From Branchinecta lynchi (lineage: Eukaryota > Arthropoda > Branchiopoda > Anostraca > Branchinectidae): a stretch of DNA of 64,000 nucleotides. Below, one piece after another: positions 12,541 to 61,007 of this stretch; position 1 is the first letter of the stretch, and the number at the start of each line of letters is the position of its first letter. The position numbers were made by a program, and so were the translations under genes. The notes beneath the pieces were generated by a model. The model did no database searches. It was given only the letters and a program-made list of their open reading frames with translations, and had not been told where the DNA came from. Where the stretch lies: assembly GCA_023053575.1 (NCBI GenBank), contig JAKZAP010000006.1:16067280-16131279 (forward strand), read 5' to 3'.

Positions 12541-12645
12541 ATAGCTTTCAAATTATTATTAGATGGCAAAAGTTGGACAAAAGCGGAATGTCGAATGTAG
12601 CCATAGGCTGTAAATATTCTTTGAGTCGAAGCTGACTTTGAAACA

Positions 12646-12898
12646 TTTATTCAAACAATGTTTACAACGGATACGTCAGCTACGATTCTTTGTCAGCGAT
12701 ATTTCGGCCCTTCTTGGCAAGGGTCCTCGTCAGGCTGTCAATCCTCTGGTTCAACTTCGTTGACTACAGGTTTGTTTCCTTCCCCGAAGTTGAACCAGAG
12801 GATTGACAGCCTGACGAGGACCCTTGCCAAGAAGGGCCGAAATATCGCTGACGAAGAATCGTAGCTGACGTATCCGTCGTAAACATTGTTTGAATAAA
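12646..12898. mobile_element. Penelope-like fold-back with hammerhead-like core
   Basis: Two arms of 114 bp (12,646-12,759 and 12,785-12,898) are reverse complements with about two mismatches, separated by a 25-bp loop. Each arm contains CTGACGA, a stem GACCC...GGGCC, and GAAA in that order (plus strand 12,811-12,842), the layout of a hammerhead ribozyme core. The surrounding CTTGCCAAGAAGGGCCGAAA resembles terminal-repeat sequence of Penelope-like retroelements as I remember them. The arm tips read AACAATGTTTAC and GGATACGTCAGCTACG. The open frame across it is a consequence of the palindrome. Confidence 0.6.
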
Positions 12899-21890: not shown

Positions 21891-22278
21891 ATGACAGGCC
21901 TATCTTCCGTTTTGTTGCGAATGGGGTATTAGGCTCCTCCAATTTGTTTTATTGCACTTGTTATTTTCTGCTAACTGAAATGAGGTTTAGACGGTCGATT
22001 GGCTGACAAGACATTCAGTACTGAAATTGAAACTGGTCTTGCAAGATCTTCAAGATCTCTCTGAATTTGTCCATGCGGTTTGTTTACATTAAAAGCATTT
22101 AAAGTAGGATGGTATCGAATTAGGTTACTTCAATACTAGTTTGGTTATTGGGGACGTGAATTCTCTTGCCTCTAACGCTGTTTGTATATAAGATGTGATA
22201 AACATTTTACTTTCACACTCCACGTCGATGAAAACGCACTTGTATGAAATCTCTCCAGGACGGATTTGTTGTCTTTCC
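21891..22278. other. No recognisable gene
   Basis: Unique-looking AT-rich DNA between the family H array and family A copy 3. No coding island or repeat recognised. Confidence 0.4.
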
Positions 22279-23713
22279 AAACAAGACCAAAGGTTTCGAT
22301 GGGATCCCAAAAATTCAATATCTGATCCAGACAACTGGGTCTTGTCTTAGCCAGATCCAGTCTTCGCCAGACTCCTTGAACATTTTTACAATTAAAATTC
22401 AGAAACAGATTAAGGCCAAATAGCTAATCACCTGAGAAAACCAAGTTCAGATTTGGATTCAGCATGTGTGTTTACCCCTATAAGTCATATCTGTTTTGAC
22501 GAAAACTTCCTGCCACTTCTGCCAATTTCCCGGTTCCGGCCGAACTCCAGAACTACTTGTCCGGCGAAAAAAGAAAGCTCAAAGACGAAATCAGGGTATC
22601 TTCTTTCCCCAGTAATGAACATCTAATCAACTTCAAATAGAAATTTAGCTTATAACAAATTTTCCGATTCCAGCCGGATTCCGGTCGAACTATATGTCCG
22701 GGTAAAATACGATTGTGACACAGGGACTCAGCATCTCTTCTTACCCCTAAATCGCTTATCTAATCAACTAGAAATAAAACTTTGACTTCCAACAGTTTTC
22801 CGGTTTTGGCCGGATTCCGGACGAACTACATGTCCGGGTAGAAACTTATTTTCACATAAGTGTTCAGCATGTCTTCTTGCCCTAAATCGAACATCCAATC
22901 AACTCCAAATTATACTTTTAATTTTGACAAACTTTCCGGTTTGGGCCGGATTCCGGTCGAAATACTTGTCCGTCGAGAAAATAGTTTTCACCATCGTCTT
23001 CAGCATGTCTCCCTACCTCTAAATCGAACATTTAATCAACTTCAAATAAAACTTTTACTTTCAACAAACTTTCCGGTTTGGGCCGGATTCCGGGCGAAAT
23101 ACTTGTCCATCGAGAAAATAGTTTTCAACATCGTCTTCAGCATGTCTTCCTACCCCTAAATCGAACATCTAATCAATTTCAAATAAAACTTTTACTTTCA
23201 ACAATCTTTCCGGTTTTGGCCGGATTCCGGACGAAATACTTGTCCGTCGAGAAAATAATTTTCACCATCGTCTTCAGCATGTCTTCCTACCCCTAAATCG
23301 AACATCTAATCAACTTCAAATAAAACTTTTACTTTCAACAAACTTTCCGGTTTTGGCCGGATTCCGGGCGAACTACTTGTCCGATGACAAAATAGTTTTC
23401 ACCATCGTGTTCAGCATGTCTTCTTACCCCATAATCGACTATCACATTAGCTGTTTCAAAATATTTTGTTTGTCCCTTAATTTCAATCCCCTCCCCCACC
23501 CCTAAATGTAGAGCTACAATGCCCATCTACGAACTTGACTGGTCCGACGACCCAACGAACCTTCTCACCAAGTTTCATCAAAATATCTCATTCCCTTCGA
23601 GAGTTATCGTGCTTACAGACGGACGGACAGACGGACGGACGGACGGACGGACAGACGGACAACTTTTGCGATGTCATAGGTATCCCTCCACTTACGTTTT
23701 GGGATCCCAAAAA
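22279..23713 (+). mobile_element. Family A copy 3, complete, 1.43 kb
   Basis: A full element. The left end is AACAAGACCAAAGGTTTCGA then TGGGATCCCAAAA, with an internal match ACTGGGTCTTGTC that can pair with the first bases to form a subterminal hairpin. A unique region follows, then about seven units of the 137-bp repeat (CCGGTTTTGGCCGGATTCCG, ACTTGTCCGTCGAGAAAATA, CAGCATGTCTTCCTACCCC, CATCTAATCAACTTCAAATA). The tail has TTTCATCAAAATATCTCATT, TTCGAGAGTTATCGTGC, a GACG/GACA tract (about 23,616-23,659) and the terminal palindrome TTTTGGGATCCCAAAA. It is nearly identical over its length to copy 7 at 54.6 kb. No coding. No obvious target duplication at the flanks. Confidence 0.85.
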
Positions 23714-25573: not shown

Positions 25574-27190
25574 TGATTATTCGTTGAACAAGAATTAACA
25601 GTCAGCCGCTGAATTAAAGTACCAGACCCAACGGCATCACTGCCATATCTGCACTCTCGATTAGGTTATTTAACAGACAGATAAATAAGTAAATCTTCTC
25701 ATTCTGAAAAACTCCAACTCCAAGATTACAATTCGTTAAAAAGGTAACAAAAGAGGGGACAAAACTCTTCGAGCGTTTTCCCCCTTCAACTAGTTGCTAG
25801 TACTTCCGTTCCAACAACACGGAAAGTTACTACGCTGACCGTTCCAACCTTCTCCAAATAGTAACTAATAGTAACTACTTGCTTACCATGCTCGGGAGCG
25901 TAGTTATCGTGGTAGCGCGTAGTTACCTCTGTAACCTGATTGGCTGGATTACCCCGTGATATTTTGGCAAAAATAGAACAATGCATTCCAGCCTTGAAGC
26001 CAAAATTCGTGATGTCACGCATAGTAACTACGGTAAGTAGGGTGGAACACACTCTTCGTAACCTCTGACCGAATCGTATAGGGGTTGGAATGTTTATACC
26101 GCAGTAGCTGCCTTGGGATACTTCCTCGATTTTTGTTCTCCTAAATGTAACACTGTTCGACATTATTTGTCACTTTTCTCTTACTTTACCAGTCCGTTAA
26201 CGTCTGTACACCTAGCCAAATCACTTACCGACATTGATTGTTTTTGTCGGCATTTTGCTATTTTTGCCAGGCTAATAGTCTAGTGAAAACACCTTAATCA
26301 ATAGTTTAACAATTAATTTTTTGTAACCCATTTTATTTACTTTTATGCTACTCAAGTGCGTGTTCGAGGAGACATCAACAATTACGACAATAATGAATAT
26401 CATCTTGGTTCTGAGTTCGTAAATGAACTCACAAATCACCAACCGGATCCGCCCATGCGCAAACATTCAGACTGGACATAAAACTGTACCAGAGTATAAT
26501 TCTAGCGACGTGAATATTTTTTTAGACGGTAAAAGCTGCAGACTACGCTAAGATACAAACTGTAAGTAAACTGCAAACAACTGATCTTTTGCCCTTTTCC
26601 CCTCTTTCATTATAGCACGAGTGTCATTACCTTTCCCGCTTGAGTGGGTTCGGATTAAACTTGATCACGTTTAAACGAATCCCAAGTGTGCCTTTGACGA
26701 AAAAGGCGACAGACGGGAAGAATTTGCTTCTAACGCAAACAACGTAGTCTCGAATCTAAGCTCGATCGATCAGCTCAAGCTTCTGACGAGCTTCTCAAGA
26801 ATAATCCTTCTAAGAGGGCGCTGTCGGGAACGACAAAGCTGTATTAGACCCAGGGGCAGCTTGAAGAGGACAGTTACTCGGCACTCATGAAAGTTTGTCA
26901 TCAAACGAGTCCAAGGAATCAACAAGGGGGAAACCCGGGTAAAAACAAAATTAAGCTTGAGAAAAAATACTTTTACGAGTGTTTCCAACGACTGTGATTG
27001 GCTCGATCTCAAATTAATGATCTTATATCGGACTTCCGAAAGGTCAGATCGCCATTTTTTTGTGGGCGGTTAGGCACTTTGACCCTCCGATCCGAATCGC
27101 AGCCACCTCCGTTCAGAGTAGTAGTAGCTCATCCAACAATACCGATAGTTCTTAGTATGTAAACAAGAACTGGTTAAAAGATCTGGTGCA
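25574..27190. other. No confident gene; possible GC-richer island
   Basis: Presumed RPB7 intron. The minus strand has an intact 125-codon frame (26,163-25,786) over sequence with repeated GTAACTAC/GTAGTTAC palindromic motifs. I recognise no domain. A second frame of 80 codons lies at 27,012-26,770. No family assignment. Confidence 0.35.
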
Positions 27191-27290
27191 NNNNNNNNNN
27201 NNNNNNNNNNNNNNNNNNNNNNNNNNNNNNNNNNNNNNNNNNNNNNNNNNNNNNNNNNNNNNNNNNNNNNNNNNNNNNNNNNNNNNNNNN
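27191..27290. other. Assembly gap of 100 N
   Basis: Exactly 100 N. The ten bases before it (ATCTGGTGCA) are identical to the ten bases after it, which suggests that two contigs overlap here and that the gap size is a placeholder. Confidence 0.95.
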
Positions 27291-27785: not shown

Positions 27786-30166
27786 TTTTTATGGCACTTG
27801 AGCTTACTCAAGTGCCATATAGCGATTGTAATTTCTGTCCGTCAGTCGGTCTGTCGGTCCCGGTTTTGCTAGTTCGGGCACTTCCAGATAAGCTAGGACG
27901 ATGAAACTTGGCAGGCATATCAGGAACTGGACCAGATTAAATTAGAAATTGTCGCTTCCCCGATCCGACCATCTGGAGGGGAGTGGAGGGAGGGGGAATC
28001 CGAAAAAAATAGGAAAAATGAGATATTTTTAGCTTACGAACGGGTGATCGGATCTTAATGAAACTTGATATGTGGAAGGACTTCGTGTCTCAGACCCTCC
28101 ATTTTAAATCCAGACAGGATCCCGGTGACATTGGGGGGAGTTGGAGGGGGAAACCGGAAATCTTGGAAAACACTTAGAGTGGAGGGATTCGGATGAAACT
28201 TGGTGGAAAGTACAAGCGAAAAGTCCTAGATACGTGACTGATATAACCGGAACGGATCCGCTTACTTTGGAGGAGTTGGGGGGGGGGGGGGGGGGGGGAG
28301 AAGTCCGAATTTGTAGTGATCCCGCGAGTTCCGTGCTTCCTGATGTGCTGGGATGATGGAAATTGACAGGCCATGTCTGGGACCCGACCAGATTAAATAG
28401 GAAATCATCAATTCCCCGATTCGACCATCTGGGGGGGGGAGTGGAGGGAGGGTGAAGCAAAAATTTGAGGTATTTTTAGCTTGCGAACGGGTGATCGGAT
28501 CTTGATGAAAGTTGATATTTAGGATGACCTCGTGTCTCAGACATCTCACTTTAAATCCGGGCCGGATCTGATGACACTGGGGGGAGTTGGAGGAGGGAAC
28601 CGGAAATTTTGAGAAACGCTTAGAGTGGAGGGATCGGGATGAAACTTGGTGGGAAAAACAAGCACAAGTCCTAGACACATCATTGACATAACCGGACCGG
28701 ATCAGGGCACTGTGGGGGAGTTGGGGTGGGGGTCCGGATTTCTAGCGATCCCGCGAGTTCGGCATACTTCCTGATGTACTAGGTCGATGAAACTTTGCAG
28801 GTATGTCAGGGATCCAAACAGATTGACTTGAGAACAGCCGTTTCCCCGACCCGACGATCGTGGGGGGAGTGGGTGGATGGGGAGTCCGGAATCTAGTGGC
28901 GTGCATAACTTTTGAACGGGTTGATCGGATTTGAATGAAACTTGTCTGGTGAGCTATCACCTCGGACGTTCAGTGTCACGTCCGGGTCGGGTCCGATACC
29001 TGTGGGGATGGGGGGGGGGGGGGGGGTGGAAAACTCCAGAAACTCTAAAAGCAGAGGGATTGGGACGAAACTTAATGGATGGAACAAGCATTAGGCCTAG
29101 ATGAAATTGACGGAGCAAGATGGTTTCGGGGCTCTGTGGGGGAGTTGGAGGGGGTTTCCTGGAATTCCGGTAGTCGTGAGTTAGAATAGTTCCAGATGTA
29201 AAACGACAACGAAACTTTGCAGGCATATTAGCGACCCGAATTATCTTGACTTAAGAACCTGACACAACCTACCCCAGGAAACTTCCGTTCCTAGATCCGA
29301 GCATTTTTTTGGGGAGCAAGAGAAGAGAAATACGGAAATTGACTTCTATAAATTGCAAACGAGTGGTCTGATTCGAGTGAAACTTCATGGGTGATACGAA
29401 TCGATGGCCTCGACAGGTAAAACATGCGTTCGAACCATATGCGACCACGATTAGGGGAATTGGGGGTGGGGGGGACTTTTGACATGCACAAAAACCAAAC
29501 GGATGGACCGAATGAGATGCAAATTCGACAGTGCCGAGTTTATGCGGCCTAGATTTGTTATTTGGCGTCCGGGCCGGATTCGGCCAAGGTAGGGGGGGGG
29601 GGGGTACTGGAAACTTGCAGATAGGCTATGCTCCAATGTCAGTAAAACTTGATGGACAGGGAACAGGGAATTAAGAGATTGGGGCCGAACCGGCTCCGAC
29701 AACGTTGGTGGGAGGGGGGGGGGGGGGGGGGGGGTACCGGAACTTTCCAAAAATGCTCAGATTCGAGTGAAACTTGATAGATGGTACAACAAAAGATGCT
29801 TTACGTGGTCGATTTTTTTTTATTCCGAACCAGTCTCGGCCACGGTAGGTGGAGATAGAGTGAGTACCGGAAATCGTGTAGCACGTCTAGGGATCAAACA
29901 AATGGATTTATTTGGATGAAAGTTTGAACAGTCATGTGCATTTGCTACAGACAATCGAGACGATGCCGGAAGTGCTCACAAATGAGTGAAATAAATATCC
30001 AGATCCAGATAACCGGTTTTACGCATCTGTAGCATGAGACGCGAAAACTCTTTCGGAGCATAACGAACACGGAAAATAGTGAAATATGGCAAATGCAAAG
30101 AATAGTGAGGTGTCGTTCTTGTACAGCCTACTCGTACAAGTGCCATATGAGCTCGTAGCTCTTGTT
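27786..30166 (-). mobile_element. Family B copy III, complete ends
   Basis: Read on the minus strand it starts AACAAGAGCTACGAGCTCAT (plus 30,147-30,166) then ATGGCACTTGTACGAGTAGG, and ends in the hairpin GGCACTTGAGTAAGCTCAAG followed by TGCCATAAAAA (plus 27,786-27,815). Between are about fifteen module repeats of the AAGTTTCATC... type with CCCCCTCCAACTCCCCCCA blocks. Plus-strand G-runs reach about 20 bases (28,278-28,298; 29,714-29,734). It is the inverted counterpart of copy IV at 34,724-37,700, matching unit for unit. No coding. Confidence 0.8.
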
Positions 30167-34723: not shown

Positions 34724-37700
34724 AACAAGAGCTACGAGCTCATATGGCACTTGTACGAGTAGGCTGTACAAGAAAGTAGATGAAAACGTCACAAAATACA
34801 CCCGCCATCCAAAAAGGCGGTTCGGAAATAGAAATAGGATATTTAGTTTCACTCATTTCTGAGCAGTTCCGGCATCGTCTCGATTGCAAATGCACATGAC
34901 TGTTCAAACTTTCATCCCAATAAATCCATTTGTTTGATCCCTAGACGTGCTACACGATTTCCGGTACTCACTCTATTTCCACCTACTTTGGCCGAATCTG
35001 GTTCGGAATAAAAAAAAATTGACCACCTAAAGCATCTTCGTTTATACCATCTACCAAGTTTCACTCGAATCTGAGCATTTTTGGAAAGTTCCGGTACCAC
35101 CCCCCCCTTCCCACCAACGTTGTCGGAGCCGGTTCGGGCCTAATCTCTTAATTCCCTCATCAAGTTTGACTGAAATTGGAGCATAGCCTATCTGCAAGTT
35201 TCCAGTAACCCCCCCCCCCCCCTACCTTGGCCGAATCCGGCCCAGACGCCAAATAACAAATCTAGGCCGCATAAACTCGGCACTGTCGAATTTGCATCTC
35301 ATTCGGTCCATCCGTTTGGTTTTTGTGCATGTCAAAAGTCCCCCCACCCCCAATTCCCCTAATCGTGGTCGCATATGGTTCGAACGCATGTTTTAGATGT
35401 CGAGGCCATCGATTCGTATCACCCACGAAGTTTCACTCGAATCAGACCACTCGTTCGCAATTTATAGAAGTTCATATTTCTCTTCTCTTGCTCCCCCAAA
35501 AATGCTCGGATCTAGGAACGGAAGTTTCCGGGGGTATGTTGTGTCAGGTTTTTAAGTCAAGATAATTCGGGTCGCTAATATGCCTGCAAAGTTTCTTGTC
35601 GTTTTACATCTGGAACTATTCTAACTCACGACTACCGGAATTCCAGGAAACCCCCTCCAACTCCCCCCACAGAGCCCCGAAACCATCTGGCTCCGTCAAT
35701 TTCATCTAGGCCTGATGCTTGTTCCATCCATTAAGTTTCGTCCCAATCCCTCTACTTTTAGAGTTTCTTGAGTTTTCCACCACCCCCCCCCCCCATCCCC
35801 ACAGGTATCGGACCCGACTCGGACGTGACACTGAACGTCCGAGGCGATAGCTCACCAGACAAGTTTCATTCAAATCCGATCACCCGTTCAAAAGTTATGC
35901 ACGCCACTAGATTCCGGACTCCCCATCCACCCACTCCCCCCACGATGGTCGGGTCGGGGAAATGGCTGTTCTCAAGTCAATCTGTTCGGATCCCTGACAT
36001 ACCTGCCAAGTTTCATCGCCCTAGGACATCAGGAAGTATGCCGAACTCGCGGGATCGCTAGAAATCCGGACCCCCACCCCAACTCCCCCACAGTGCCCTG
36101 ATCCGGTCCGGTTATGTCAATGACGTGTCGAGGACCTGTGCTTGTTTTTCCCACCAAGTTTCATCCCGATCCCTTCACTTTAAGCGTTTCTCAAAATTTC
36201 CGGTTCCCTCCTCCAACTCCTCCCAGTGTCATCGGATCCGGTCCGGTTATGTCAATGACGTGTCTAGGACCTTTGCTTGTTTTTCCCACCAAGTTTCATC
36301 CCGATTCCTCCACTTTAAGCGTTTCTCAAAATTTCCGGTTACCTCCTCCAACTCCCCCCAGTGTCGTCGGATCCGGCCCGGATTTAAAGTGAGGTGTCTG
36401 AGACACAAGGTCATCCTAAATATCAATTTTCATCAAGATCCGATCACCCGTTCAAAAGTTATGCACGCCACTAGATTCCGGACTCCCCATCCACCCACTC
36501 CCCCCACGATGGTCGGGTCGGGGAAACGGCTGTTCTCAAGTCAATCTGTTCGGATCCTTGACATACCTGCCAAGTTTCATCGCCCTAGGACACCAGGAAG
36601 TATGCCGAACTCGCGGGATCGCTAGAAATCCGGACCCCCATCCCAACTCCCCCACAGTGCCCTGATCCGGTCCGGTTATGTCAATGACGTGTCTAGGACC
36701 TGTGCTTGTTTTTCCCACCAAGTTTCATCCCGATCCCTCCAGTTTAAGCGTTTCTCAAAATTTCCGGTTCCCCACCCCAACTCCCCCACAGTGTCCTGAT
36801 CCGGTCCGGTACGTCAATGACGTTTCTAGGACCTGTGCTTGTTTTTCCCACCAAGTTTCATCCCGATCCCTCCACTTTAAGCGTTTCTCAAAATTTCCGG
36901 TTCCCTCCTCCAACTCCCCCCAGTGTCATCGGATCCGGCCCGGATTTAAAGTGAGGTGTCTGAGACACGAGGTCATCCTAAATATCAATTTTCATCAAGA
37001 TCCGATCACCCGTTCGCAAGCTAAAAATACCTCAAATTTTGGCTTCACCCTCCCTCCACTCCCCCCAGATGGTCAAATCGGGGAATTGATGATTTCCTAT
37101 TTAAGCTGGTCGGGTCCCAGACATGCCTGTCAATTTCCATCGTCCCAGCCCATCAGGAAGCACGGAACTCGCGGGATCACTACAAATTCGGACTTCTCCC
37201 CCCCCCCCCCAACTCCCCCAAAGTGAGCGGATCCGTTCCGGTTATATCAGTCACGTATCTAGGACTTTAGCTTGTACTTTTCACCAAGTTTCATTCGGAT
37301 CCCTCCACTCTAAGTGTTTTCCAAGATTTCCGGTTTCCCCCTCTAACTCCCCCCAGTGTCACCGGATCCGGTCTGGATTTAAAATGGAGGGTCTGAGACA
37401 CGAAGTCCTTCCATGTATCAAGTTTCATTAAGATCCGATCACCCGTTCGTAAGCTAAAAATATCTCATTTTTCCTATTTTTTCCGGATTCCCCCTCCCTC
37501 CACTCCCCTCCAGATGGTCGGATCGAGGAAGCGACAATTTCTAATTTAATCTGGTCCAGTTCCTGATATGCTTGCCAAGTTTCATCGTCCTAGCTTATCT
37601 GGAAGTGCCCGAACTAGCAAAACCGGGACCGACAGACCGACTGACGGACAGAAATAACAATCGCTATATGGCACTTGAGTAAGCTCAAGTGCCATAAAAA
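34724..37700 (+). mobile_element. Family B copy IV, complete, nested in family I
   Basis: Starts AACAAGAGCTACGAGCTCAT then ATGGCACTTGTACGAGTAGG and ends GGCACTTGAGTAAGCTCAAG, TGCCATAAAAA. It has about 18 modules; the CCGGTTATGTCAATGACGTG to TTTCATCCCGATC segment is amplified four times between about 36,105 and 36,880. The right tail carries GACAGACCGACTGACGGACA. Predicted frames of 166 and 182 codons are proline/serine translations of C-rich tandem units and are not genes. It is the inverse of copy III at 27.8-30.2 kb. The insertion into family I shows that this is a mobile unit with defined ends. Confidence 0.85.
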
Positions 37701-53815: not shown

Positions 53816-54594
53816 GAAAATCGATCAATATGTAGCAGTTGAAACGAAGGCTGCGTGTACCATAAAAGGCATTATACTCATGCCTTGTGGCGTATAATTA
53901 CAGTTCCAACCTGACACACTATTTGTCAATTTCCAATCAATATTTCATCCATCCTCTTATTTATCTTCTCCCATTGGAAGATTACTAGCTGTCTACGAAT
54001 CAGTCTCTTTGGTTCTCACTCTCGTCTTACTTTGATCACTCAACATTGTTAAAGTTTAACTGAAAAGCAAACTTATGTTTGTATCATTTAGTTGAATACA
54101 CTGAGTTATTAAGATTCTGCTAAGAGATTTTTTTATTTTCCACTAGCTGCTCTAGTAGTGAGGTTCAGAATATCTACGACTGTCCCCACAGCGCAAATTC
54201 TACTATGACGCGGAATATCTAGATCTGAACACAAACGCGGCTTTTTAGTGAGCGGTGATAAGGTTGGTGAAGACTGCTTAGTGCCTGAACAAAAAAGTTT
54301 CAAAAATCTTTTTCGTCAAGCATACGACACGGGTAGTACCACAACTCTGATAGGGAAATTCCACTATTTGAAAACTGATTATTCGTGAATAGCGGAGCAA
54401 CGAAGTAACGCATTTTCTTCGGGTCTTCAAGCCTCTTTAACTGAATAGATGAGGGGTAACAAGACTGTCCCATCTCTGCCCTTTTCAGTTAAACTTTAAT
54501 GTTTCTCCCTCGCCCATGTCGTAACCCTACGTTAGTTCAGAAATTCGGAGTGCAATAGGTTATTCGATCAGTGAAGGACGTCGGTGTCTCTTCT
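53816..54594. other. No recognisable gene
   Basis: AT-rich DNA with no coding island or repeat that I recognise. Confidence 0.4.
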
Positions 54595-56028
54595 AACAAG
54601 ACCAAAGGTTTCGATGGGATCCCAAAAATTCAATATCTGATCCAGACAACTGGGTCTTGTCTTAGCCAGATCCAGTCTTCGCCAGACTCCTTGAACATTT
54701 TTACAATTAAAATTCAGAAACAGATTAAGGCCAAATAGCTAATCACCTGAGAAAACCAAGTTCAGATTTGGATTCAGCATGTGTGTTTACCCCTATAAGT
54801 CATATCTGTTTTGACGAAAACTTCCTGCCACTTCTTCCAATTTCCCGGTTCCGGCCGAACTCCAGAACTACTTGTCCGGCGAAAAAAGAAAGCTCAAAGA
54901 CGAAATCAGGATATCTTCTTTCCCCAGTAATGAACATCTAATCAACTTCAAATAGAAATTTAACTTATAACAAATTTTCCGATTCCAGCCCGATTCCGGT
55001 CGAACTATATGTCCGGGTAAAATACGATTGTCACACAGAGACTCAGCATCTCTTCTTACCCCTAAATCGCTTATCTAATCAACTAGAAATAAAACTTTGA
55101 CTTCCAACAGTTTTCCGGTTTTGGCCGGATTCCGGACGAACTACATGTCCGGGTAGAAACTTGTTTTCACATAATTGTTCAGCATGTCTTCTTGCCCTAA
55201 ATCGAACATCTAATCAACTCCAAATAAAACTTTTAATTTTGACAAACTTTCCGGTTTGGGCCGGATTCCGGTCGAAATACTTGTCCGTCGAGAAAATAGT
55301 TTTCACCATCGTCTTCAGCATGTTTCCCTACCTCTAAATCGAACATTTAATCAACTTCAAATAAAACTTTTACTTTCAACAAACTTTCCGGTTTGGGCCG
55401 GATTCCGGGCGAAATACTTGTCCATCGAGAAAATGGTTTTCACCACCGTCTTCAGCATGTCTTCCTACCCCTAAATCGAACATCTAATCAATTTCAAATA
55501 AAACTTTTACTTTCAACAAACTTTCCGGTTTGGGCCAAATTCCGGGCGAAATACTTGTCCGTCGAGAAAATAATTTTCTCCATCGTCTTCAGCATGTCTT
55601 CCTACCCCTAAATCGAACATCTAATCAACTTCAAATAAAACTTTTACTTTCAACAAACTTTCCGGTTTTGGCCGGATTCCGGGCGAACTACTTGTCCGAT
55701 GACAAAATAGTTTTCACCATCGTGTTCAGCATGTCTTCTTATCCCATAATCGACTATCACATTAGCTGTTTCAAAATATTTTGTGTGTCCCTTAATTTGA
55801 ATCCCCTCCCCCACCCCTAAATGTAGAGCTACAAAGCCCATCTACGAACTTGACTGGTCCGACGACCCAACGAACCCTCACACCAAGTTTCATCAAAATA
55901 TCTCATTCCCTTCGAGAGTTATCGTGCTTACAGACGGACGGACAGACGGACGGACGGACGGACGGACAGACGGACAACTTTTGCGATGTCATAGGTATCC
56001 CTCCACTTACGTTTTGGGATCCCAAAAA
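54595..56028 (+). mobile_element. Family A copy 7, complete, 1.43 kb
   Basis: Left end AACAAGACCAAAGGTTTCGA, right end TTTTGGGATCCCAAAAA. Open frames starting at 55,256, 55,393 and 55,530 show the exact 137-bp step of the array. Same length and unit number as copy 3 at 22.3 kb, with only scattered base differences by eye. Tail GACGGACGGACAGACG tract at 55,934-55,975. No coding; the repeating peptides read from the units are by-products. Confidence 0.85.
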
Positions 56029-58899: not shown

Positions 58900-59009
58900 G
58901 CCAGAGACATAAAACCGCGTTTCGTTGTTTCTAGTTCGTTCCTAACTTCCTGTTTCACCGTTCTGCTTTGTTCTACAAATATTATTTAGTCCCAGCTGAC
59001 TGGGAAACA

Positions 59010-59090
59010 TATATTAAAACAATGCACAAAACGGAAACGGATACGGATACATAGCTGACGTATCCGTTTTATGCATTGTTTGAATATGTG
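59010..59090. repeat. Short fold-back related to the 12.65-kb tips
   Basis: Inverted segments AACAATGCACAAAACGG and ATCCGTTTTATGCATTGTT surround ATAGCTGACGTATCCG. The string AGCTGACGTATCCGT plus ATTGTTTGAATA also forms the tips of the Penelope-like fold-back at 12,646-12,898, so this is probably a remnant of the same element's ends. Confidence 0.5.
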
Positions 59091-59971
59091 CTTCGTTCTG
59101 ATCGGTCCCGTTGGATTCATGCCGTTGCATGACTAACAAGACCAAAGGTTTCGATGGGATCCCAAAAATTCAATATCTGATCCAGACAACTGGGTCTTGT
59201 CTTAGCCAGACCAGTCATCGCCAAACTCCTTGAACATTTTTACTATTAAAATTCAGGAACAGATTAAGGGCAAATAGCTAATCATCTCAGAAAAAAAACT
59301 TCTTGCCACTTCTGCCAATTTCCCGGTTCGGCCTAACTCCTGAACTACTTGTCCGGCGAAAAAAGAAAGCTAAAAAACGAACTCAGGGTATCTTCTTTCC
59401 CCAATAATGAACATCTAATCAACTTCAAATAAAAATTTAGCTTATAACAAATTTTCCAACTCCAGCCGGATTCCGGTCGAACTCTATGTCAGGGTAAAAT
59501 ATGATTGTCACACACAGATTCAGCATCTCTTCTTACCCCTAAATCGGTTATCTAATCAACTACAAATACAACTTTAACTTCTAACAATTTTCCGGTTTTG
59601 GCCGGATTCCGGGCGAACTCCATGTCCGGGTAGAAAGATTGTTTTCACATAAGTGTTCAGAATGTCTTCTTGCCCTAAACCAAACATCTAATCAACTCCA
59701 AATAAAACTTTTAATTTTAACAAACTTTCCGGTTTGGGCCAGATTCCGGGCGAACTACTTGTCCTCCGAAAAAATGGTTTTCACCATCGTCTTCAGCATG
59801 TCTTTCTACCCCTAAATCAAACATCTAACCAACTTCAAATAAAAGTTGGACTAGACTGTCCTTTAGTCAAATTGCCTCTTCAGTCAAAGAAATAGCAAAT
59901 TTGCTCTGTGAATGTGGTCAATAGTTCTGTAGGCTACTCCTTCCCCCTGATATATTGTTTGTATTTGCTAG

Positions 59972-60206
59972 GAATGGACGAGGATGAAGAAGAAATTGTT
60001 CCAATGCCGAATGTCAACCCTGCAATTTTGCGGAAAGTACTGCAATGGGCCACCTACCACAAAGATGACCCTCCTCCACCAGAAGATGATGAGCTCAGGG
60101 AAAAAGAGGACAGATGATATTTCAAGCCGGGATGCAGATTTCTTGATGGTTGACCAGGGAACATTGTTTGAATTGATCTTGGCAGCAAATTACCTTGACA
60201 TTAAAG
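59972..60206 (+). pseudogene. SKP1: SKP1 exon fragment, frameshifted
   Basis: SKP1 is the adaptor of SCF ubiquitin ligases, bridging cullin-1 and F-box proteins. The segment begins after TTTGCTAG (acceptor) and ends before GTGAGA (donor). It reads [20 protein letters not shown], then [20 protein letters not shown] and, after a one-base insertion in an A-run near 60,105, RTDDISS and [20 protein letters not shown]. This is the central POZ-domain-to-C-helix region. The length is 235 nt where 234 would keep frame. Besides the frameshift, a Trp normally found before Asp-(Ala/Gln) is Arg here and a conserved Lys is Met. Both splice sites and intron flanks are present, so it derives from genomic DNA, not a processed mRNA. 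No other SKP1 exon was seen. A single-base assembly error cannot be excluded, but the added substitutions favour a pseudogene. Confidence 0.88.
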
Positions 60207-60608
60207 GTGAGAACTCTTGTTAAAGCACAACTCTTACTAGAAATGATCTTTTCAAGATGAATGGCTCAGAAATCTTCTTTTCAAAAATATGATTACTTCC
60301 CATTTTCTTGTTAGTGTTTGTTCACTCTATCCAGCCTTTCCTCTCTCCAACGCAGGGGCTGGATCCAAAATATTTGAAAACTAAACCTGCCTTGGTTAAA
60401 AAGTGGGAAAACCATGCAAAACACAACATGTCTAAAACAGAAGGTACACCTGGTGGTCTATCATATCCTCCAAAATGAACAACACTTTGAAGCTTTTCTT
60501 GTCCGAATTTGTGAAAGTATCCTTGACGACCTTGAAGCTTTCGTGACTGTAAAAACTTGGTTATGCCAGGAAAAGGGCTAAAACATTGTAGGTGCAAAAT
60601 GAACAATT
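60207..60608. other. Intron-like flank of the captured SKP1 segment
   Basis: Follows the donor GTGAGAACTC. A 94-codon minus-strand frame (60,606-60,322) crosses it; I looked for the next SKP1 exon and for a ribosomal protein match and found neither. The segment ends where the family A unit resumes at 60,609. Confidence 0.5.
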
Positions 60609-61007
60609 ACATCTAATCAACTTCAAATAAAACTTTTACTTTTAACAAACTTTCCGGTTTTGGCCGGATTCCGGGCGAACTACTTGTCCGATGACAACAT
60701 GGTTTTCACCGTCGTATTCAGCATGTCTGTTTACCCCACAATAGACTATCACATTAACTGTTTCAAAATAATTTGTTTGCCCCTTAATTTGAACCCCCTC
60801 CCCCACCCCTAAATGTAGGGCTACAAAGCCCATTTACGAACTTGACTGGTCCGACGACTCAACGAATCGGCACACCGAGTTTCATCAAAATATCTCATTC
60901 CCTTCGAGAGTTATCGTGCTTAAAGACGGACGGACAGAAGGACGGACGGACGGACAACTTTTGCGATGTCATAGGTTTCCCTCCACTTACGTTTTGGGAT
61001 CCCAAAA

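Follow-up and report, generated by a model that had tools for sequence, protein, structure and literature searches.

The window, by which we mean the whole 64,000-nt stretch of the Branchinecta lynchi genome analysed here (C19:16067280-16131279, from an assembly of 575.7 Mb in 216 contigs), holds a copy of an abundant repeat family, family A, whose central tandem array is interrupted by a piece of the host gene SKP1. The features of this composite are as follows (window coordinates).

59135..61007, + strand (HINE reading on the - strand): composite family A (HINE-like) element with SKP1 cargo, recognised by profile and BLAST
59135..59302, + strand: terminal module A5, which forms the 3' end when read as a HINE; TGGGATCCCAAAAA occupies 59155-59168
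59410..59847, + strand: left part of the 137-bp tandem array, ending after ~27 bases of a unit
59848..60608, + strand: SKP1 cargo from the native gene on C11, by genome match and alignment with the native copy
59972..60206, + strand: SKP1 exon, human residues ~35-113, with splice sites intact, frame broken and four missense changes
60220..60608, + strand: part of interspersed repeat B, captured with the exon, by genome matches
60609..60758, + strand: resumption of the array, the last 137-bp unit and a link
60759..61007, + strand: terminal module A3, which forms the 5' end when read as a HINE
60924..60955, + strand: GACG-type microsatellite
60992..61007, no strand assigned: terminal palindrome TTTTGGGATCCCAAAA

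A SKP1 exon within a tandem array

Both ends of the composite element are present, at 59,135 and 61,007. TRF reported the left array at 59,410-59,844; the array stops at ~59,847 and restarts at 60,609 in phase 1 of the unit, and 24-27 bases of the array unit thus stand on both sides of the cargo. This agrees with the first-pass annotation, made from the letters of the window, which had described an array that stops and resumes at the same 24-bp unit sequence. Within a tandem array, every offset resembles a duplication or a deletion, and an overlap of 24-27 bp is indistinguishable from a target duplication; by itself it identifies no mechanism. We place the start of the cargo at 59,848 (± ~3). 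The 764-bp block drawn earlier from 59,845 is indeed foreign, but begins about three bases later, and its part from 60,220 to 60,608 belongs to an interspersed repeat. Just outside the composite, at window positions 59004-59094, lies an inverted repeat with 36-bp arms (86% complementary) and relatives near 12,612-12,896; by eye, similar sequence also flanks an inverted repeat at C19:16145187-16145785.

The exon retains both splice signals (acceptor AG at 59,970-59,971, donor GT at 60,207-60,208). Its first 44 amino acids matched SKP1 chains of the PDB with an E-value of 3.3e-16, and human SKP1 aligned to the window in two frames (59,872-60,105 and 60,020-60,208), which indicates one frameshift in the exon. 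Compared with the native exon described below, 5 of the 235 bases of the cargo exon are substituted, 4 of these substitutions change an amino acid, and one base is inserted. The ratio of 4 nonsynonymous to 1 synonymous change compares with a random expectation of 0.80 nonsynonymous, and the cargo exon is decaying without visible constraint. The first reading of the locus, as a SKP1 exon with intact splice sites and a one-base frameshift that interrupts the array of a two-ended family A copy, was therefore correct; its two unusual residues did mark an altered exon, but one with four amino-acid changes.

Intron sequence is kept on both sides of the exon, and no A-tail or retroelement tail was seen at either edge of the cargo. 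The donor was consequently DNA, and a processed retrocopy is ruled out. Besides the cargo exon, the window contains no further SKP1 exon, and an Rfam scan of the window at the gathering score found nothing.

The native SKP1 gene as donor

In a genome-wide search, the 764-bp block had one other near-full-length match, at about C11:16272913-16273710 (92% identity with gaps). The exon together with its 5' intron had exactly two matches in 576 Mb, namely the cargo itself and C11 (2/2 candidates scored), and this search revealed no second SKP1-bearing composite in the genome. On C11, stretches corresponding to human residues 4-36, 34-114 and 109-163 follow each other in order and in frame over ~7.5 kb. 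As the native gene lies elsewhere, and as the unique part of the cargo matches only itself and that gene, host DNA was copied from SKP1 on C11 into C19, direction included. The earlier proposal that the element had acquired genomic DNA of a host gene is hence borne out, by an unspliced exon with its flanks and a native SKP1 on another contig; the genome-wide search it had suggested located that gene on C11 and no other family A copy with SKP1 cargo.

Among the 758 aligned bases, cargo and native copy differ by 25 substitutions (5' intron, 6/125; exon, 5/235; 3' part, 14/398), plus the frameshift and a 38-bp unit. The latter is a tandem duplication found in the native copy only; it is absent from the cargo and from five other aligned copies of repeat B. 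By comparison of six repeat B copies, the 14 differences of the 3' part could be polarised: five fell to the cargo, eight to the native copy, and one was ambiguous.

Repeat B is ~500 bp long and was already present in the native intron, where about a dozen bases separate its start from the exon. The 39 further genome matches of the block query all lay within its repeat B half (best 40 of 3,701 candidates). The captured tract ends inside repeat B, ~90 bp short of the end of the repeat, which shows that repeat B did not carry the exon; transposition by repeat B is ruled out.

The native SKP1 intron also harbours a family A copy (C11:16273950-16275110; L009, L010). It is separated from the captured tract by 240 bp, and its relative orientation is opposite. 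Given how dense family A is in the sample described below, proximity of this order has an 8% chance, and we therefore gave it no weight. Capture by end-bypass from this copy was rejected, since the cargo sits inside the array and the relative orientation is wrong.

Family A and its other inserts

Family A was sampled in 282 kb, comprising 118 kb around native SKP1 and 164 kb around and including the window, which are neighbourhoods rather than random sequence. This sample contained 36 A5 starts, 33 A3 ends and 22 two-ended elements with a median length of 1,036 bp; the SKP1 composite (1,874 bp) was the longest of the 22. Merged family A matches made up 13% of the sample; if this density held across the genome, family A would number tens of thousands of copies. 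Two copies in the window (22270-23713 and 54585-56028) are 98% identical over 1,444 bp within unrelated flanks, and together with copies at C19:16133115 and C11:16259669 they look, from their sequences, like a young subfamily. Two long repeat pairs between window positions 27786-30000 and 34837-37700, in opposite orientation and 93% and 95% identical, point to either an inverted duplication or paired copies of an element.

When read opposite to the strand on which it was first drawn, family A resembles, at the level of sequence, a HINE (non-autonomous Helentron), and we call it HINE-like rather than a proven HINE. As outlined in two reports (PMC4067079, PMC7492417), HINEs carry a sub-terminal repeat on either side, the 5' one palindromic, and between them a tetranucleotide microsatellite and central repeats of satellite type. 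Family A is like the HINE/DINE-1 Helentron group covered there, including the oyster Cg_HINE, in being non-coding and in having palindromic sub-terminal repeats, a tetranucleotide microsatellite on the 5' side and central repeats. Of the 22 two-ended copies, 19 have the palindromic GGGATCCC (≤ 1 mismatch) no more than 45 nt from one end, and 21 have TTTTGGGATCCCAAAA (≤ 2 mismatches) at the other; the GACG-type run and the central 137-bp array correspond to the microsatellite and tandem repeats of HINEs. The sub-terminal repeats of family A lie ~1 nt from the 5' end and ~21 nt from the 3' end. For mite HINEs, the same source gives 2-4 nt and 38-60 nt respectively (PMC4067079), such that family A departs from them in its 3' distance, as other HINE families do too. 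HINEs further have a hairpin near the 3' end and insert at TT with no target duplication. The 3' hairpin of family A is a weak fold only (-3.3 kcal/mol), which, like the 3' distance, speaks against full membership. No target duplication was seen by eye at the flanks of the 22 copies; at one occupied site, deduced by comparing paralogous copies of repeat B, a family A copy lies within repeat B, in an A-run (L007).

A search for Rep/Helicase sequences yielded nine PF14214 (Helitron_like_N) matches from 11 candidates. Two of these Helitron-like Rep matches lie in stop-free open frames of 2,787 and 2,783 aa (L032, C4:9641102; L033, C13:6010539), and may possibly represent an intact giant Helitron-like element in this genome. 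We found no autonomous partner for family A, whose ends were absent from the fetched stretches around the two long frames. At two near-identical loci on C1 (L035, L036), family A matches occur ~1 kb beyond decayed Rep sequence; given the density of the family, this proximity may be due to chance.

The first-pass annotation had further suggested that family A could be a shuffler of gene fragments. From a gap list of 46 rows (SKP1 included), we followed six in-array inserts besides SKP1. Three proved to be interspersed repeats, and none was shown to be gene-derived. The insert at C19:16056358-16057151 (794 bp) is an interspersed repeat and was accordingly rejected as a second gene capture; that of L007 is likewise an interspersed repeat, and its tail is A/T-rich. 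In the insert at C11:16320421-16320612, a tRNA-Thr-like sequence is present, and the 282-kb sample includes a relative of the insert with 81% identity. This second copy argues against a gene-like capture, which we rejected; judged by sequence, the insert is probably a tRNA-derived repeat, its tRNA-Thr(TGT)-like stretch lying inside another family A array at C11:16320514-16320586 (L020:8015-8087). A 310-bp insert (L003) had no match elsewhere in the genome and hence no known donor, the insert at C19:16038862-16038930 has a LINE-like tail by eye, and a further one was followed at C19:16130080-16130180. Five peptides from three of the followed inserts matched no Pfam family at E-values up to 1. 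Among the other rows of the gap list are C11:16308145-16308809, between array and A3, and C19:16145187-16145785, by eye an inverted repeat, inside an A3 module.

The 39 best other places for the left arm of the composite were all 91-92% identical (best 40 of 10,684 candidates), and the best other match of the A3 end was 96%. With the cargo in one copy only and no gene-derived sequence demonstrated in the six other inserts, gene capture as a habit of family A is not supported, nor is it excluded by so few inserts.

We also considered whether the array has a preferred entry point at unit phase ~24-28, between CAAATAAAA and CTTTTAC, through which gene fragments and retroelements enter repeatedly, making the minisatellite a landing pad. 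The edges that fall at this phase, as assigned post hoc and by eye, are the left one of the SKP1 cargo, the two of the L007 insert and the right one of the insert at C19:16038862-16038930; the other followed inserts have no such edges. This stretch is A/T-rich and may be favoured by retroelements; in many copies the array's first units, which are diverged, likewise start near that phase. We regard a general entry point as improbable.

Junctions, timing and route of the acquisition

At the left junction, the array sequence CTTCAAATAAAACT resembles the donor sequence TTGAAGTCAAAACT in the 16 bases that lead up to it; among random array/donor points, 0.2% score as high (P = 0.002), or 2% when a displacement by 2 is allowed (P = 0.02). 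A 6-base in-register run is found at 0.2% of random points, although the letters of the window then require two later changes; in the simplest reading, the overlap is 1 base only. At the right junction, array-donor likeness was tested and none was found. The tandem units, which the first-pass annotation proposed as the exchange site, are a candidate for that role. One-sided short likeness combined with an unlinked, collinear donor fits repair by filler DNA, a model that has been invoked for internal acquisitions in Helitrons (PMC6544945).

To date the cargo relative to the landing of the element on C19, we compared their changes, whose rates should agree since both sit at one locus. The arms carry 38 changes private with respect to nine relatives, over 1,110 sites. 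The cargo lineage has ~13 changes in 758 bases (range 10-16), made up of the 5 polarised in the 3' part, all 5 exon differences, which were assigned to the cargo, and about half of the 6 in the 5' intron. Fisher's test of arms versus cargo gave P = 0.03 for 13 changes, 0.004 for 10 and 0.12 for 16; taken singly, the left arm differed from the cargo (P = 0.007) and the right arm (9/399) did not (P = 0.5). Exchange between array units may inflate the private changes of the left arm, and unfetched sister copies would lower them. This weak dating leans towards a cargo younger than the landing.

Our preferred account is repair of a broken array from SKP1 after the element had landed, which we consider probable as a whole. 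To the donor, direction, junctions, element ends, single composite and exon decay observed above, it would add three inferred steps: a break within the 137-bp array of the HINE-like element, its patching with ~0.8 kb copied from SKP1 on another chromosome by the filler-DNA (templated-insertion) route, and the placing of this event after the insertion on C19. The copied filler would comprise one exon, both intron flanks and part of the intronic repeat B, and the cargo would never have been mobilised. Against this account stand the right junction, which lacks likeness, the overlap of 1 base only in the simplest reading of the left one, the weak dating, and the array overlap, which may equally be a target duplication.

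If the cargo had been taken up during rolling-circle transposition, or within a source copy, and the composite had landed on C19 as a unit, both element ends would be intact around the cargo, as they are. Gene-fragment capture by Helentrons is on record (PMC4067079), and the private changes of the right arm do not differ in frequency from those of the cargo (P = 0.5). However, the genome holds no other composite, the cargo lies internal to the array rather than past a missed terminus, and dating by the whole arms leans towards a younger cargo, so that we find this route rather unlikely. A retroelement enzyme that inserted a copy of unspliced SKP1 RNA could account for the identical 24-27 bases on both sides as a target duplication, and in other copies the same array phase adjoins two repeat inserts that have A/T-rich tails. 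Yet neither edge has an A-tail or retroelement tail, the introns are kept, and repeat B is cut ~90 bp before its end, which therefore did not prime; we judge such an origin very unlikely. Nothing was found in favour of two family A insertions flanking 59,848-60,608 as the native SKP1 locus or as an artefact of assembly. The gene on C11 has its exons ordered and in frame, and no other SKP1 exon occurs in the window, including beyond the element ends, where ordered exons would have refuted the first-pass annotation. The block has diverged from the native gene (25/758 bases plus indels) and is thus not a misassembled native copy, and the only N run of the window lies near 27,190-27,290. We attach almost no probability to this explanation.

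The SKP1 capture is real but single, decayed and unamplified, and the kind of event is already known. What it offers is a clear-cut case in which the donor gene is known: an exon with both its splice sites, together with a portion of an intronic repeat, entered the tandem core of a very abundant HINE-like family. It also fits the filler-DNA route in an animal. The case further raises the question of whether the minisatellites of HINE-like elements are break-prone collectors of foreign DNA.

In the published Helentron survey, the mite Helentrons and HINEs examined showed no gene capture, while Helentron-Cq-32A of Culex carries histone gene fragments in eight copies (PMC4067079). The SKP1 composite shares with the latter the presence of broken host-gene fragments inside an element of the Helentron group, but its cargo is single copy, keeps its intron flanks and lies inside a tandem array. 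With the insect Hel1 Helitrons (PMC6544945), it has in common an internal acquisition from an unlinked locus and short likeness at a junction; it differs from those filler acquisitions in that the likeness is confined to one junction and the acquired sequence was not amplified.
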